A DNA stretch of 64,000 nucleotides from Marinobacter pelagius. GTDB taxonomy: Bacteria > Pseudomonadota > Gammaproteobacteria > Pseudomonadales > Oleiphilaceae. The stretch covers positions 62,001-126,000 of the forward strand of contig NZ_FOUR01000008.1 of NCBI RefSeq assembly GCF_900114925.1, given 5' to 3'. A program made the position numbers and the translations under genes. Shown piece after piece: positions 10,894-55,100 of the stretch (positions within the stretch are counted from its first letter, which is position 1; every line of letters starts with the position of its first letter). The notes beneath the pieces are model-generated. The model saw only the letters and a program-made list of their open reading frames with translations. It was not told the DNA's origin and did no database searches.

Positions 10894-10912
10894 CTGAACC
10901 GAATTTTACTCG

Positions 10913-11012
10913 CGTCTTGACGGGGTGCTGGCTTACCTGATTCCTGGGTGGCCGGCTGAGATTGCATCGCAGAACCCGCGACCTGATCCGGATAATACCG
11001 GCGTAGGGATTA
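10913..11012 (+). promoter_or_regulatory. TPP riboswitch (THI element) of thiC
   Basis: The leader has the conserved thi-box order: GGGGTGC at 10922, the pyrimidine-binding CTGAGA at 10956-10961, then ACCTGATCCGGATAATACC at 10981 continuing into GCGTAGGGA. The arms ACCTGATCCGG and CCGGCGTAGGG flank the pyrophosphate-binding helix. Thiamine pyrophosphate binding would lower thiC expression. A downstream stem (GCAGTC at 11031 with GACTGC at 11053) may be part of the expression platform, about 60 nt before the thiC ribosome-binding site. Confidence 0.93.
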
Positions 11013-11023
11013 AGACCAGATGA

Positions 11024-12994
<1,971 letters not shown>

Positions 12995-13036: not shown

Positions 13037-13150
13037 GAGCCCGGTGGGTGGCCCGGTTCAGGACACGCTCCTGACGGCCCATCCCTGGGGCGCTTGGGCT
13101 CCGCCATCCCTGGCTCCGCACAGTCCTGAACCGGGCCACCCACCGAGCTC
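13037..13150 (+). repeat. family A hairpin repeat, copy A1 (short loop)
   Basis: Inverted arms 13037-13064 and 13123-13150 (28 bp, one mismatch that still allows a G-U pair in RNA) enclose a 58-nt loop. The loop begins ACGCTCC and ends CTCCGCACA, as in the other family A copies, while the arm sequence is unique to this site. It starts 42 bp after the thiC stop and faces copy A2. The 487-bp gap 12995-13481 holds these two elements and no gene that I can support. Confidence 0.85.
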
Positions 13151-13257: not shown

Positions 13258-13371
13258 GGGTGAATCGGGAAGCGCCTCCCAAAACTGTGCGGAGCCATGG
13301 ATGGCGGAGCTCAAGCGTCACATGGACGTGCCGCAAGGAGCGTGTTTTGGGAGGCGCTTCCCGATTCATCC
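13258..13371 (-). repeat. family A hairpin repeat, copy A2 (short loop, inverted)
   Basis: Arms 13258-13285 and 13344-13371 pair over 28 positions with one G-U-type mismatch. The 58-nt loop, read on the minus strand, starts ACGCTCCTTGCGGC and ends ATGGCTCCGCACA. Loop length is identical to A1, but the arms are unrelated to A1. A1 and A2 point toward each other across 107 bp. Confidence 0.85.
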
Positions 13372-19342: not shown

Positions 19343-19537
19343 GGAGCAGTCGGGCAGGGCTTTCGAAAACACGCTCCTTGCGGCACCCCTGCGGGGTCCA
19401 GCCCGCAATCACAGATTGCGGTCGTTCGGCTGTCGCATGAAGCTTCGCTTCATAAGCGCTCGGCCTCACCCATGTGACGCTTGAGCTCCGCCATCCATGG
19501 CTCCGCACAGTTTTCGAAAGCCCTGCCCGACTGCTCC
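19343..19537 (+). repeat. family A hairpin repeat, copy A3 (long loop)
   Basis: Perfect 28-bp inverted arms at 19343-19370 and 19510-19537 flank a 139-nt loop. The loop starts ACGCTCCTTGCGGC, ends ATGGCTCCGCACA, and contains smaller stems (GCAATCACAGATTGC; ATGAAGCTTCGCTTCAT). Compared with the 58-nt loops, it carries an extra 81 nt internally. The arms match no other part of the window that I noticed. Confidence 0.9.
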
Positions 19538-20805: not shown

Positions 20806-20818
20806 AGGGCCTGAAAAC

Positions 20819-20952
20819 GGGGTCAGAAGAAGGCTTTCTTCAGACCCCAATTTAATCCCGGGGTCAGATGAAAGCTTTCATCTGACCCCTCTTTCACTCT
20901 GAATTCGCCCCCGTGCAAACCCGGGGTCTGAAGAAAGCCTTCTTCTGACCCC
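20819..20952. repeat. family B palindrome cluster B1-B3
   Basis: Three 30-bp palindromes at 20819-20848, 20860-20889 and 20923-20952. Each is GGGGTCAGA (or GGGGTCTGA) plus a short AGAA/TGAA segment around AAGCTT or AGGCTT, mirrored to end in GACCCC. They fill the gap between the convergent rlmI-like and HAD genes, 13 bp from one stop and 15 bp from the other. Confidence 0.92.
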
Positions 20953-20967
20953 TCCTTCACCCCGAAC

Positions 20968-21624
20968 TCACCCCCGCAAAGAAATCACCGGCCACCCCGA
21001 TTCCTTCGCCAGCGCCTCCAGCCTCGGGTCCGGATCCACCGCCACCGGATTCTCCACCTGCTTCAGAAGCGGCACGTCATTATGGGAATCGCTATAGAAC
21101 CAGGCCCCCTCCAGCGTGCGTTTGTGATGATCAAGCCAGTCGTTCAGCCTGGTCACCTTGCCGTCCTGGAAGCTGGGGACACCGGCGACCTCCCCGGTAT
21201 ACCGGCCATTCACCAGTTCCGGCTCGGTGGCGATCAGGTGCTCAACCCCTAACAACTCCGCAATCGGCTCGGTGACAAAGCGGTTGGTGGCTGTGATGAT
21301 CATCAGGGTGTGGCCCTGCTGGCGGTGCTGGTCCAGCAGTTCCCGGGCCTTGTCCTGCATCATCGGGCGCACTTTTTTCTCGAGGAAGGCTTCACGCCAC
21401 GCCAGTAGTTCGTCCATGTCATGCCGGGCCAGTGGCTGCAGGGCGAAGCGGAGGTAATGGAAGATGTCCAGCTCGCCGTTCAGGTATTCCTCGTAGAACC
21501 GGTCATTGGCTTTGCGGTATTCCTCGGCATCGACCAGACCTTCTTCCACCAGAAATTCGCCCCAGGCATGGTCGCTGTCGCCAGCCAGCAGGGTGTTGTC
21601 CAGATCAAAAAGTGCGAGCGTCAA
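20968..21624 (-). CDS. HAD-superfamily subfamily IB phosphatase
   Basis: A 218-residue HAD hydrolase. DLDNT in ALFDLDNTLLAGD gives the catalytic aspartates, IITATNRFV is the motif II region, and WFYSDSHNDVPLL carries the motif IV acidic pair. It has SerB-like features and matches the Pseudomonas protein next to rppH and ptsP, which has been described as a histidinol-phosphate phosphatase. The substrate here is unproven. I chose a TTG start at 21624 because GGAGGA lies 6 bp upstream; a GTG at 21666 would add 14 residues. Divergent from rppH across about 170 bp. Confidence 0.83.
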   Translation of the reverse strand: MTLALFDLDNTLLAGDSDHAWGEFLVEEGLVDAEEYRKANDRFYEEYLNGELDIFHYLRFALQPLARHDMDELLAWREAFLEKKVRPMMQDKARELLDQHRQQGHTLMIITATNRFVTEPIAELLGVEHLIATEPELVNGRYTGEVAGVPSFQDGKVTRLNDWLDHHKRTLEGAWFYSDSHNDVPLLKQVENPVAVDPDPRLEALAKESGWPVISLRG

Positions 21625-25993: not shown

Positions 25994-26005
25994 CGGAATG
26001 AAAAA

Positions 26006-26211
26006 GGGGTCAGATGAAAGCGTTCATCTGACCCCACGTTTTACCGCCAAACCTCGAAGTTGCTGTCCCGGCCGGGGTCTGATGAAAGCCTTCATCTGAC
26101 CCCATCTTCACCAACAGGCCTCGGAGATGAAGTCCAAATCGGGGTCAGAAGAAAGCTTTCTTCTGACCCCAACTTCAGGCCGTGGTCTGATGAAAACCTT
26201 CATCTGACCCC
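26006..26211. repeat. family B palindrome cluster B4-B7
   Basis: Four 30-bp palindromes at 26006-26035, 26074-26103, 26141-26170 and 26182-26211, with the same GGGGTCAGA/TCTGACCCC ends. The last begins GTGG instead of GGGG. They fill the whole convergent gap between the patatin-like gene and hslU, 12 bp and 9 bp from the two stops. Spacing between starts is 68, 67 and 41 bp. Confidence 0.92.
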
Positions 26212-26220
26212 ATGTTCCCG

Positions 26221-27552
26221 TCAGAGAATATACCGACTCAGGTCCTCATCCTCGGACAACTCCCCAAGCTTCTCGTCCACATACTCTGCCGTCACCTCAA
26301 AGCTCTCGGTCACCTGGTCACCCGCATCGTAGGACAGGCTCTCCAGCAACCGCTCCAGCACCGTATGCAGGCGACGGGCACCAATATTCTCGGTAGTCTC
26401 GTTGACCTTCCAGGCCACCTCCGCAATCCGGGCAATGGCATCCTCGCCGAAGGTCAGTTTGACCCCCTCGGTCGCCATCAGCGCTTCATACTGCTGGACC
26501 AGTGACGCATCCGGCTCGGTCAGGATGCGCTTGAAGTCATCCGGCGTCAGGGCCTGCAGCTCAACCCGGATCGGCAGGCGACCCTGCAGTTCCGGAATCA
26601 GGTCCGAAGGTTTGGACAGGTGGAAGGCACCGGAAGCGATGAACAGGATGTGATCGGTGCGCACGGAGCCATACTTGGTACTCACCGTGCTGCCTTCGAT
26701 GAGCGGCAGCAGGTCCCGCTGCACGCCTTCCCGGGAAACGTCGGAGGAGGTGTTTTCCGAGCGCTTGGCAACCTTGTCGATCTCATCAAGAAACACGATG
26801 CCATTCTGCTCCACCGCCTGAATGGCCTTCTGCTTGATCTCTTCCTCGTTCACCAGTTTGGCCGCTTCCTCGTCCTTGGCCTGCTTGAGCGCGTCGGCCA
26901 CCCTCATCTTCCGGGTCTTGCGCTTGTCGGAAGACAGGTTGGAGAACATGCTCTGCAGCTGGTTGGTCATCTCCTCCATGCCCGGAGGCGCCATGATCTC
27001 CACGCCCGCACCGGCGCTGCGCAGGTCGATCTCGATTTCCTTGTCATCGAGTTCACCTTCCCGCAGTTTCTTGCGGAATAGCTGGCGGGTGGAGGAATCG
27101 TTGCTGGCCCGCTGGCTTTCTTCGTTGAAATCCCGGGGCGGCGGCAGCAGGGCGTCCAGGATCCGTTCCTCGGCGGCATCCAGGGCGCGGCTTTCGTGGC
27201 GCTTCATTTCCTTCTCGCGCAACATTTTCACTGCCATGTCCGCCAGATCGCGGACAATGGACTCCACATCCCGTCCGACATAGCCCACTTCGGTGAACTT
27301 GGTGGCTTCCACCTTCAGGAAGGGAGCATCGGCCAGCTTGGCCAGGCGACGGGCGATTTCGGTCTTGCCGACACCGGTGGGGCCGATCATCAGGATGTTC
27401 TTGGGGGTAATCTCGTCCCGCAGGCTGCTGTCCAGCTGCATCCGGCGCCAGCGGTTACGCAGTGCGATGGCCACCGCGCGTTTGGCTTCTTCCTGGCCCA
27501 CGATGTGTTTGTTGAGCTCGTGGACAATTTCTCGGGGAGTCATTGCAGACAT
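26221..27552 (-). CDS. hslU: HslU, ATPase subunit of the HslVU protease
   Basis: A 443-residue AAA+ unfoldase that feeds substrates into HslV. Walker A is GPTGVGKT (57-64), Walker B lies in IVFLDEIDK, and the intermediate I-domain is between them. The C-terminal LSRYIL tail, which inserts into HslV pockets, is present. The pore loop GYVGRD is at about 91-96. It starts 12 bp after the hslV stop and is probably co-transcribed from a sigma-32-like promoter upstream of hslV. Length matches the family. Confidence 0.97.
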
Positions 27553-28180: not shown

Positions 28181-28379
28181 AGGCCGGGTTTGGAGACCGT
28201 TTTCCAAAACACGCTCCTTGCGGCACCCCTCCGGGGTCCAGCCCGCAATCACAGATTGCGGTCGTTCGGCTGTCGCATGAAGCTTCGCTTCATAAACGCT
28301 CGGCCTCACCCATGTGGCGCTTGGGCTCCGCCATCCATGGCTCCGCACAGTTTTGGAAACGGGTCTCCAAAGCCGGCCT
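28181..28379 (+). repeat. family A hairpin repeat, copy A4 (long loop)
   Basis: Arms 28181-28210 and 28350-28379 pair over 30 positions with three mismatches. The 139-nt loop is the same length as in A3 and nearly identical to it, again from ACGCTCCTTGCGGC to ATGGCTCCGCACA. The arm sequence differs from A3. It lies 19 bp upstream of the hslV heat-shock promoter and faces copy A5. The gap 28096-28556 holds only the promoter and repeats A4 and A5. Confidence 0.9.
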
Positions 28380-28429: not shown

Positions 28430-28538
28430 GCACCTTTTGGGTCTGGCTTTCCGAAACCCTGCGGAGCCATGGATGGCGGAGCGGAGCGTACATGGACGTA
28501 TTCACAGCGTGTTTCGGAAAGCCAGACCTAAAAGGTGC
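28430..28538 (-). repeat. family A hairpin repeat, copy A5 (short loop, inverted)
   Basis: Arms 28430-28457 and 28511-28538 (28 bp, one mismatch that allows G-U pairing) enclose a 53-nt loop. Read on the minus strand, the loop begins ACGCTGTG and ends ATGGCTCCGCAGG. It starts 18 bp after the SPOR gene's stop and points toward A4 across 50 bp. Confidence 0.85.
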
Positions 28539-34230: not shown

Positions 34231-34475
34231 TTTGGTGATGTTGTGGTTTTCACTTAGGGGTCGGGCCCGGCAGCCTGGTGGTATCGTGGCTGCGAAGCAG
34301 GTAATGAAGCGCCCTTAAGGCTTGCCTGCTACAGGGATTGCAAGTATGATTCGCGGTCTGTTTTCGGCAGGGCATGATTGTGCCTCGCCTTTCACTTTGA
34401 TTCAAACATGCGGTGCCAGGCGCCAGGGATTGATTCCCCGTGACCGGGTAGCGGCATGACCGAAAGAGGTTCGCC

Positions 34476-51731: not shown

Positions 51732-51744
51732 GGCGTTAGCCCAA

Positions 51745-51840
51745 GGGGTCTGAAGAAAGCCTTCTTCTGACCCCGAGTTAGCGACAAGCCCCGAAACCAG
51801 AGTCCAAGACGGGGTCAGAAGAAAGCTTTCTTCAGACCCC
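51745..51840. repeat. family B palindrome cluster B8-B9
   Basis: Two 30-bp palindromes at 51745-51774 and 51811-51840, both of the AGAA variant, 66 bp apart from start to start. They lie between the co-directional gltD and hemE, beginning 13 bp after the gltD stop. Confidence 0.92.
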
Positions 51841-51931
51841 TCGTTCTGCCCCCTTGTTCACGCCTTCCCAATTCCCCCAAACCGCGTATCATTGCACCCC
51901 AGAAAATTTGATACCCAGGCCAGGAGTTCCC

Positions 51932-52996: not shown

Positions 52997-53023
52997 GAGC
53001 CTGACTGTCTGGTCATAGAAAAA

Positions 53024-53053
53024 GGGGGCAGATGAAAGCTTTCATCTGACCCC
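53024..53053. repeat. family B palindrome, single copy B10
   Basis: One 30-bp palindrome of the TGAA variant, starting GGGGGCAGA rather than GGGGTCAGA, 27 bp after the hemE stop. It stands alone, 110 bp before the PilZ gene. Confidence 0.88.
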
Positions 53054-53163
53054 ATGTTCACCCCGTCAAACCAGGCCGAACTCCCCCATTTCCCCCTGAT
53101 TACTGGCCGGTTTATCCTGTCCGGACTATGGTCATATAAAAAACCGACAACAGGAGCAACCGC

Positions 53164-53535
53164 TTGTCCGCACACGTCCAAGACAAACGCCGTTTTCAGC
53201 GCATCGAATTCGACGCGCCCTGTGAGCTGCACTGGCAGGATAACGTCTGGCGCACCGAGGTTCTGGATATCTCCATGAGGGGAGTACTGGTGAAGCGGCC
53301 GGAAGGCTGGTCAGCGCCGCTCCGGCAGCCCTGCGAGGTGGTGATTCACCTGGACGATCACTCGGCCGCCATCGTCATGGCGGTGGAGCTGAAGCATGTG
53401 GATGAGCAGCGGCTGGGGTTCAGCTGTCAGTACATTGACCTGGAGAGCGCCACCCACCTCAAGCGCCTGGTGGAATTGAATCTTGGGGATCCGGCGCTGC
53501 TGCAGCGGGAATTCGCCAGGTTGGTGGATAAGTAA
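53164..53535 (+). CDS. PilZ-domain protein, MapZ-like (PA4608 orthologue)
   Basis: A 123-residue single-domain PilZ protein that should bind cyclic-di-GMP. The binding residues appear as R-x-x-x-R in KRRFQRIEF (about 8-16) and D-x-S-x-x-G in LDISMRG. The C-terminus YIDLESATHLKRLVELNLG closely resembles the P. aeruginosa PilZ protein MapZ (PA4608), which binds the chemotaxis methyltransferase CheR1. In both genomes it sits beside radA. The start is TTG at 53164, with AGGAG 8 bp upstream. No chemotaxis gene is nearby. Confidence 0.88.
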   Translation: MSAHVQDKRRFQRIEFDAPCELHWQDNVWRTEVLDISMRGVLVKRPEGWSAPLRQPCEVVIHLDDHSAAIVMAVELKHVDEQRLGFSCQYIDLESATHLKRLVELNLGDPALLQREFARLVDK

Positions 53536-53552
53536 AAACGTGGCCCAAAAAC

Positions 53553-53713
53553 GGGGTCAGATGAAAGCTTTAATCTGACCCCACCCTCATGCACCAAAGC
53601 TTGGACACCTAACTCAGGGGTCTGATGAAAACCTTCATCTGACCCCATCTTCAAGTCACATCCCAGCTTTGAAATCTAACTCCGGGGTCAGAAGAAGGCT
53701 TTCTTCTGACCCC
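53553..53713. repeat. family B palindrome cluster B11-B13
   Basis: Three 30-bp palindromes at 53553-53582, 53617-53646 and 53684-53713, 64 and 67 bp apart. B11 and B12 are the TGAA variant, B13 the AGAA variant. B11 has one base changed in the right half. They fill the convergent gap between the PilZ gene and radA, 17 bp and 10 bp from the stops. Confidence 0.92.
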
Positions 53714-53723
53714 TGCTTCACAC

Positions 53724-55100
53724 CTAAAACTCCTCCAAAGCTGCCAACGCATCACTCAGCTTGGCCACCGGCACCACCTTCATCCCCTCAACCGGCTTGC
53801 GCGGCACATTGGCCTTGGGTACCAGCGCCCGGGTGAAACCATGCTTGGCCGCCTCGTAAATCCGTTCCTGCCCGCTGGGCACCGGCCGAATCTCGCCGGA
53901 GAGCCCGACCTCCCCGAAGATCACCAGATCCTGGGGCAGGGCGCGGTCGCGGAAGGAGGAGACAATGGCTGCCAGAAGCGCCAGGTCGGCACTGGTCTCG
54001 TTGACCTTAACGCCGCCCACCACGTTGACGAATACATCCTGATCCGACACATGCATGCCTCCGTGCCGATGGAGCACAGCCAACAACATGGCCAGCCGGT
54101 TCTGATCCAGGCCCACCGCAACCCTTCGGGGATAGCCGCCCTGGGCCATGTCCACCAGTGCCTGAATTTCCACCAGCATCGGCCGGGTGCCTTCCCAGAC
54201 CACCATGACCACACTGCCGGGCGCGGCCTCCTCGCCCCGGTTCAGGAAGATGGCGCTGGGGTTCTTCACCTCTTTCAGGCCCTGTTCGAGCATGGCGAAC
54301 ACGCCCAGCTCGTTCACCGCGCCGAAGCGGTTCTTGATTCCGCGCAGGGTGCGATACCGGCTGTCGCTGGAGCCTTCCAGCAGGATCGAGCAGTCAATCA
54401 TGTGCTCGAGAACCTTGGGGCCTGCCAGGCTGCCGTCCTTGGTGACGTGCCCCACGAGGAACAGGATGGTGCCGGTCTGCTTGGCAAAGCGGGTCAGGAA
54501 TGCGGCGCTCTCCCGGACCTGTGACACCGAGCCCGGGGCCGACTCGATGTCGGCAACATGCATGACCTGGATACTGTCCACCACCAGGATTTTCGGCTTT
54601 TCCGCCTCGGCCACCTGCATGACCCGCTCGACGCTGGTTTCCGACAGCATCTTCAGATCCCGGGTGGGTAGGCCCAGGCGCTTGGCACGCATGGCTACCT
54701 GCTGCAGGGATTCCTCGCCGGTGACGTAGAGCGCTGGAACGCTCTCGGCCAGGTGACAGACCGCCTGCAGCAGCAAGGTACTCTTGCCGGCGCCGGGGTG
54801 GCCGCCCATGAGTACCGCCGAGCCCTCCACCAGGCCGCCGCCAAGGACCCGATCAAACTCCTGCATGCCGGAGCTGATGCGAGGCTGCTCGGCCAGGCTG
54901 ACCTCGTCCAGGCTCTGGACCTCCGACAGGCTGCCGGCAAAACCCTCGAACCGGGCGCCCCGGGCTCCCTTGGCATTGCTGCTCACGCCGCGCACTTCGC
55001 TGATGGTGTTCCAGGCCTGGCACGCGGTGCACTGGCCCTGCCACTTTGAATAGTCGGCGCCGCACTCGGTGCAGACGTAGGCGGTTTTTGCTTTGGCCAT
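53724..55100 (-). CDS. radA: DNA repair protein RadA
   Basis: A 458-residue RecA-like branch-migration ATPase acting in recombinational repair. The N-terminal zinc ribbon is CTECGADYSKWQGQCTAC (about 10-27). Walker A is GHPGAGKST, and the RadA-specific KNRFG motif is in KNRFGAVNE. The C-terminal Lon-protease-like domain includes GEVGLSGEIRPV. Its start overlaps the ettA stop by one base (TAATG), so the two genes are probably co-transcribed. Confidence 0.97.
   Translation of the reverse strand: MAKAKTAYVCTECGADYSKWQGQCTACQAWNTISEVRGVSSNAKGARGARFEGFAGSLSEVQSLDEVSLAEQPRISSGMQEFDRVLGGGLVEGSAVLMGGHPGAGKSTLLLQAVCHLAESVPALYVTGEESLQQVAMRAKRLGLPTRDLKMLSETSVERVMQVAEAEKPKILVVDSIQVMHVADIESAPGSVSQVRESAAFLTRFAKQTGTILFLVGHVTKDGSLAGPKVLEHMIDCSILLEGSSDSRYRTLRGIKNRFGAVNELGVFAMLEQGLKEVKNPSAIFLNRGEEAAPGSVVMVVWEGTRPMLVEIQALVDMAQGGYPRRVAVGLDQNRLAMLLAVLHRHGGMHVSDQDVFVNVVGGVKVNETSADLALLAAIVSSFRDRALPQDLVIFGEVGLSGEIRPVPSGQERIYEAAKHGFTRALVPKANVPRKPVEGMKVVPVAKLSDALAALEEF

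Follow-up and report, generated by a model that had tools for sequence, protein, structure and literature searches.

A dispersed hairpin family in Marinobacter with two CsrA-type sites on a stem conserved for pairing: a candidate distributed CsrA sponge or transcript tag

Five places in the 64,000-nucleotide stretch of Marinobacter pelagius DNA analysed here (the window) carry the same loop ends between long inverted arms, and the arms look different from place to place, which raises the question of how a repeat can keep its centre while the stem around it is free to vary. An earlier note made from the letters alone had offered three answers, namely insertion into the tip of a pre-existing long hairpin, formation of the second arm by template copying, or an RNA stem maintained by compensatory change. 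All five inverted-arm structures that it described are present, the start of the fourth being corrected from 28181 to 28183 (Table 1). When folded on the RNA strand argued for below, elements 1, 2, 3 and 5 gave z-scores of -8.3 to -9.6, and 0 of 200 shuffles was as good. The window also contains a second dispersed palindrome family, one copy of which was in addition seen in the spacer of a divergent pair of elements (C11:78759-78930).

Table 1. Elements, CsrA-type sites and other features in the window. Gene calls come from a simple codon-usage scan.
Feature	Position	Strand	Description	Basis
Element 1	13037..13150	(-)	arms 13037-13064 / 13123-13150, 28-bp; 58-nt loop	R1 109.8 bits, fold z -8.33
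Element 1, CsrA-type site 1	13105..13112	(-)	CAGGGAUG, hairpin loop	sequence, fold
Element 1, CsrA-type site 2	13080..13087	(-)	CAGGGAUG, hairpin loop	sequence, fold
Element 2	13258..13371	(+)	arms 13258-13285 / 13344-13371, 28-bp; 58-nt loop; divergent partner of element 1	R1 121.2 bits, fold z -8.83
Element 2, site 1	13296..13303	(+)	CAUGGAUG	sequence
Element 2, site 2	13321..13328	(+)	CAUGGACG	sequence
Element 3	19343..19537	(-)	arms 19343-19370 / 19510-19537, 28-bp; 139-nt long-loop variant, loop 19371-19509; gcvH-like gene on one side, next gene on the other	fold z -9.57
Element 3, site 1	19492..19499	(-)	CAUGGAUG	sequence
Element 3, site 2 position			CAUGGGUG; GGA lost	sequence
Element 4	28183..28377	(-)	arms 28183-28210 / 28350-28377; 139-nt long-loop variant, loop 28211-28349
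Element 4, sites			site 1 (CAUGGAUG) retained, site 2 lost
Element 5	28430..28538	(+)	arms 28430-28457 / 28511-28538, 28-bp; 53-nt loop; divergent partner of element 4	R1 103.8 bits, fold z -9.27
Element 5, site 1	28468..28475	(+)	CAUGGAUG	sequence
Element 5, site 2	28491..28498	(+)	CAUGGACG	sequence
TPP riboswitch	10911-11026		upstream of thiC-like gene	Rfam
L31 ribosomal protein leader	34407-34470			Rfam
Second palindrome family	20814-20971; 26001-26230; 51740-51859; 53019-53732		GGGGTCAGATGAAAGCTTTCATCTGACCCC; 13 copies, clustered; REP-like look

The hairpins belong to a family with about 98 copies in the 3.8 Mb Marinobacter genome of the window, 92 of them full-length and about 6 with long or odd loops. 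Collecting copies by their loop ends, as had been suggested, recovers about 42 of these, and the higher count was reached with R1, a covariance model trained on 57 copies. Among the matches listed for the exact loop pattern, all named contigs were from Marinobacter, and a plain loop query matched 35 of 58 relatives, all in the genus of the window. R1, the E-values of which are rough (shortened calibration), matched 91 of 245 genomes of the order (48 of 112 genera) and 43 of 274 genomes of the class, and a full count gave as many as 132 matches in one genome outside Marinobacter; in 49 copies from other genera the arms were again paired and locus-specific. No match to the element was found in the plasmid and phage collections searched. 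A long-loop subfamily (132-139 nt; L001, L002 and L003) carries extra hairpins, has lost the second GGA and occurs in many Marinobacter species.

What the arms have in common is above all their length and their pairing. In Marinobacter, the Watson-Crick fraction is still about 0.77-0.80 at bp 28, falls to 0.40-0.47 one position further out and reaches 0.19-0.30 at bp 30, a sharp end of the stem that bears out the nearly constant arm length noticed before; some stems in other genera are a few base pairs longer. Among 5122 arm pairs (bp 1-26) from 197 Marinobacter copies, 96.2% were Watson-Crick. In an alignment of 57 copies, 98.5% of the cells were paired and two-sided changes occurred at 28 of 35 pairs, with a covariation score of 0.750 compared with 0.170 for shuffled alignments and no more than 0.137 for slid partners, and in a second alignment two-sided changes were seen at 31 of 35 pairs, with a score of 0.835 compared with 0.186 after shuffling. 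Own-genome copies with the 58-nt loop were 94% identical in their loops, 54% in their arms and 42% in the outer 15 bp. Calling the arm sequences unrelated nevertheless overstated the case, since alignment brings out a weak shared consensus, GGGnnnGGCTTTCCAAAAC on the 5' side, with GGCTTTCCAAAAC as inner arm consensus and GGG at bp 17-19, and arms at one and the same locus are homologous between species. At both the gcvH locus (the site at 19343) and the thiC-nudF locus (13037/13258), the element is present in most Marinobacter species examined, and the arms form a recognisable series across species with paired changes (for example, GGGCTGCCC/GGGCAGCCC versus GGGCTACCC/GGGTAGCCC). Between orthologous arms at gcvH, 147 position pairs differed on both sides and 49 on one side, and the second locus agrees. 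Compensatory change at the same locus was thus found when the comparison proposed earlier was run between species, and the idea that the arms are made anew at each locus has to be given up, given that they are homologous across species and change in pairs.

The mismatches that remain within the arms differ between the strands. Read in RNA sense, those of the 197 Marinobacter copies (bp 1-26) comprised 114 G.U and 19 A.C, an excess with p about 1e-17 by simple count. On the strand read by the earlier note, the same mismatches appear as 114 A.C or C.A and 19 G.T or T.G, so that its remark on mismatches that often keep G-U pairing was right in kind and applies to the opposite strand. The bias reappeared in a further set of 47 copies from the genome of the window (24:5) and in the 49 copies from other genera (24:9), and it had one sign throughout when copies were divided by the four arrangements of flanking genes (25:3, 31:9, 14:1 and 25:3). 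A mutation bias of transcription as the source of the excess was rejected, since it would flip with gene orientation. Because the G.U excess lies on one strand whatever the orientation of the genes, we conclude from sequence comparison that pairing is selected in RNA read from the strand opposite to that of the earlier note. Of the three answers originally offered, compensatory change in an RNA stem has good support, namely from two-sided changes, one-strand G.U intermediates and homologous orthologous arms. The RNA strand shows nearly no preferred direction with respect to neighbouring genes, for which reason the element was rejected as a fixed-orientation 3'UTR or 5'UTR feature. The elements are presumed to be transcribed, and transcription of the right strand at every copy is put in doubt by this near-random orientation and by sigma-70-like promoter scores that were no higher upstream of the RNA strand than in shuffled or antisense sequence.

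In RNA sense, the constant loop consists of two hairpins, each with the loop A-N-G-G-A-N on a closing C-G pair. Its A, G, G and A do not vary, all four bases occur at the first N and the last N is mostly C or U, and the hairpin stems vary around these fixed loops. Site 2 matches CANGGANG in 184 of 188 short-loop Marinobacter copies and, as the search pattern included site 1 and not site 2, its conservation in the first set is not a product of the search. Two sites were present in 47 of 47 further own-genome copies (set A3) and two CANGGANG sites in 41 of the 49 copies from other genera; the model that retrieved sets A2 and A3 itself includes GGA, so that part of the GGA content of these sets reflects how they were chosen. 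In long-loop copies, the one at 19343 among them, site 1 is retained and site 2 reads GGG, not GGA. Some predicted folds pair the two CAUGG sites with one another. Crystal structures of the CsrA/RsmA family show recognition of ANGGAN in a hairpin with contacts to A, G, G and A (PMC3791407), and ANGGA in hairpin loops is the preferred CsrA target according to a review (PMC7366521). The invariant bases of the two loops suggest that CsrA binds the elements. The genome encodes one csrA with a canonical protein, and csrA is present in 38 of 42 class genomes that carry the element, three of the four without it being incomplete assemblies; since csrA is near-universal, its co-occurrence with the element is weak evidence.

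Elements that lie close together are divergent in 15 of 15 pairs, with the RNA 5' ends facing each other at a spacing of 34-170 bp (for example C11:163767/163991, C12:141022/141218 and, in the window, 13037/13258 and 28183/28430), and this arrangement is independent of flanking-gene direction and the same in other genera. No shared motif was found by eye in the spacers of these pairs, and a shared outward promoter was looked for there and not seen. Short hairpins in many intergenic copies, with close pairs inverted, are also typical of REP/REPIN and MITE repeats. However, the copies of a REP or MITE have their arm sequence in common, whereas in the present family the head is constant and the arm varies freely, and we found neither target duplication nor, in the stretches compared, empty sites between close species. 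Integron attC sites, too, have inverted arms that are conserved in structure and not in sequence, and they are strand-specific, as are the elements described here. To our knowledge, attC sites have no constant head, unlike the present elements, which in turn show no cassette arrangement. These parallels bear on the possibility that the element acts as a strand-specific single-stranded DNA hairpin for a recombinase or a REP-associated (HUH) transposase and that its likeness to ANGGAN is coincidental. Such a hairpin would account for the strand bias, the high copy number and the head-to-head pairs (15/15), which recall REP doublets, and G.T is the mildest mismatch in DNA as well. We nevertheless consider it unlikely, since the stems of REP hairpins are their own and those of the elements are free, with only the ANGGAN that corresponds to the CsrA contacts fixed, and since element positions are conserved between close species. 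It is likewise improbable that the elements are simply stable hairpins at mRNA ends, acting only as a nuclease block or transcription end and with CsrA irrelevant. GC-rich 28-bp stems that often lie 10-60 bp from gene ends would suit this role, but it leaves both the invariant ANGGA in two loops and the gene-independent orientation unexplained, and no T-run was present after those stems that were inspected.

The way in which arms and loops diverge can be followed between two close species (G000 and G060), the flanks of which are mostly 91-98% identical. No clear empty site was found between them, 17 of 17 comparable true G000 elements being present in G060, and losses of the element are seen at genus depth. 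One apparent absence (B1:205598) was rejected as a missed variant that is present in both species, another (A6:284769) resembles a chance match to the pattern, and the alignment of A6:207080 between the two genomes was poor. In about eight elements the arms differ at no more than four positions and the flanks are usually close to identical, and in about as many both arms differ at 6-14 of 28 positions and the divergence extends into the adjacent 20-60 bp, as replacement of the entire block by a divergent allele would produce. Loop-only exchange is seen between A6:121023 and B1:238369, the arms of which differ at 0 and 1 positions and the flanks of which match at 127/130 and 126/130, with loops of 58 versus 139 nt. 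Furthermore, the chimeric alleles L293 and B1:236882 (G060:C1 near 2386883) combine left and right arms of different lineages in stems with mismatches, which suggests recombination within the loop that both lineages share. Gene conversion of loop tracts among copies, combined with purifying selection on the CsrA contacts, would explain why fixed heads sit on free stems. At a loop-less gcvH site (L087), the arms are fused at TTTCGAAA, which looks like a deletion between TTTCGAAA repeats; these arms have since drifted apart, as if pairing were no longer selected after loss of the head. Most elements have a weak C/A-rich consensus directly 3' of the stem (RNA sense, ~nCCCCAAAG) and a similar weak one 5'. 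As a candidate target duplication this flank motif was rejected, because it showed no within-element excess, direct flank similarity being 5.07 within elements and 5.22 between elements.

Near-perfect pairing, arms that diverge far more than loops, and arms that differ by equal numbers at several loci in close species could also result from a DNA process, template switching or hairpin-templated correction, which keeps the arms complementary and involves no RNA function. As such a process treats both strands alike, equal numbers of A.C and G.T would be expected, whereas the observed ratio is 114:19 and holds in every gene orientation. Moreover, chimeric alleles with at least seven uncorrected mismatches persist (L293 and B1:236882), and strongly differing arms come with differing adjacent flank, which points to allele replacement and not to correction. 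We therefore regard a DNA process of this kind as very unlikely, and the proposal that the second arm is formed by template copying is contradicted by the same one-strand G.U bias and mismatched chimeras. Just as hard to credit is a mobile element consisting of the loop alone, which inserts into hairpin tips or rebuilds the second arm on arrival, for although the family is dispersed and high-copy, has identical loops in unrelated arms and changes loops while arms and flanks stay, no hairpin lacking the loop was found that could represent an empty site (L087 has the appearance of a deletion), all 17 comparable G000 elements have their counterpart in G060, orthologous loci carry homologous arms, and there is neither target duplication nor a match in the plasmid or phage collections. 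With no empty hairpin found and no empty site seen between the two close species, insertion into a hairpin tip survives only in the sense that loops do change independently of arms, as in A6:121023 versus B1:238369.

Taken together, we think it likely that the family represents a structured RNA module whose head bears two CsrA-type sites and that would serve as a distributed CsrA sponge or buffer, as a transcript tag, or as both. In this model, the 28-bp outer stem, which must pair and is almost free in sequence, would carry a head of two short hairpins, each exposing an ANGGAN hexaloop closed by C-G as the predicted recognition site of dimeric CsrA/RsmA, and one CsrA dimer would dock on both loops of one head. 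The roughly 98 dispersed copies, with close to 190 sites, may act jointly as a sponge or buffer, and/or each element, bound by CsrA and resistant to nucleases, may tag the transcript in which it lies. Arms would drift via G.U intermediates and compensatory changes and would differ between loci because only pairing is selected, and loops would be alike within a genus because the CsrA contacts are selected and short-tract exchange homogenises the copies.

The proposed module has a counterpart in TwoAYGGAY (RF01731), which was identified in a comparative screen (Weinberg et al. 2010; PMC2864571), has been reported from gamma-proteobacteria and Clostridiales and was proposed in 2014 to bind CsrA on the basis of its motif (PMC4333381). 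The two share AYGGAY-type loops on two hairpins, on the same strand, and a poorly conserved outer stem that encloses both hairpins, here of 28 bp with covariation; in Marinobacter, the first N is any base, slightly wider than Y, and the second N is mostly C/U. At the gathering cut-off, an Rfam scan of the window returned the TPP riboswitch and the L31 leader only (Table 1), and the link to TwoAYGGAY is visible only at a relaxed threshold. Across the own genome, the RF01731 model found 43 places at E<=1, of which those listed coincide with R1 elements on the same strand, and the best copy scored 41.3 bits against the gathering cut-off of 43 bits, with 0 copies over it; L233, a relative in another genus, reaches 45.1 bits with this model. 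To judge from these scores and the shared architecture, the Marinobacter element is a relative that would work like TwoAYGGAY and not a filed member of that family. What sets it apart is a copy number of about 98 per genome, a stem of constant 28-bp length, genus-homogenised loops and divergent pairs, none of which we found in the literature searched. CsrB/CsrC and RsmX/Y/Z likewise have ANGGA hairpin loops and several sites per RNA, and like them the elements would titrate CsrA; however, those RNAs are single genes with their own promoters and many sites each, whereas here two-site modules occur at about 98 loci with no sigma-70-like promoter detected. In the open-access literature, with subscription papers mostly outside the search, we found no report of CsrA repeats in Marinobacter or of dispersed CsrA-binding repeats, and the high-copy dispersal, the exchange of loops with arms staying put and the strict divergence of close pairs appear to be new.

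It is also conceivable, albeit less certain than the reading for Marinobacter and somewhat short of probable, that many gamma-proteobacteria carry a dispersed, genome-wide CsrA-binding repeat, in which tens to more than 100 two-site hairpins jointly buffer CsrA, with heads homogenised within a genus by loop-only exchange and stems diverging under a pairing-only constraint. The CsrA sponges known so far come from a small number of dedicated sRNA genes, and if close to 200 perfect CsrA sites at about 98 loci do act on CsrA, genes of the CsrB/RsmZ type alone could not explain CsrA availability. An Rfam family that has been of unknown function since 2010 would thereby gain a role, along with model organisms that offer about 100 natural replicates each. 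Finally, the fixed head on a free stem provides a natural experiment on compensatory change, in which each locus would be an independent 28-bp stem of known strand.
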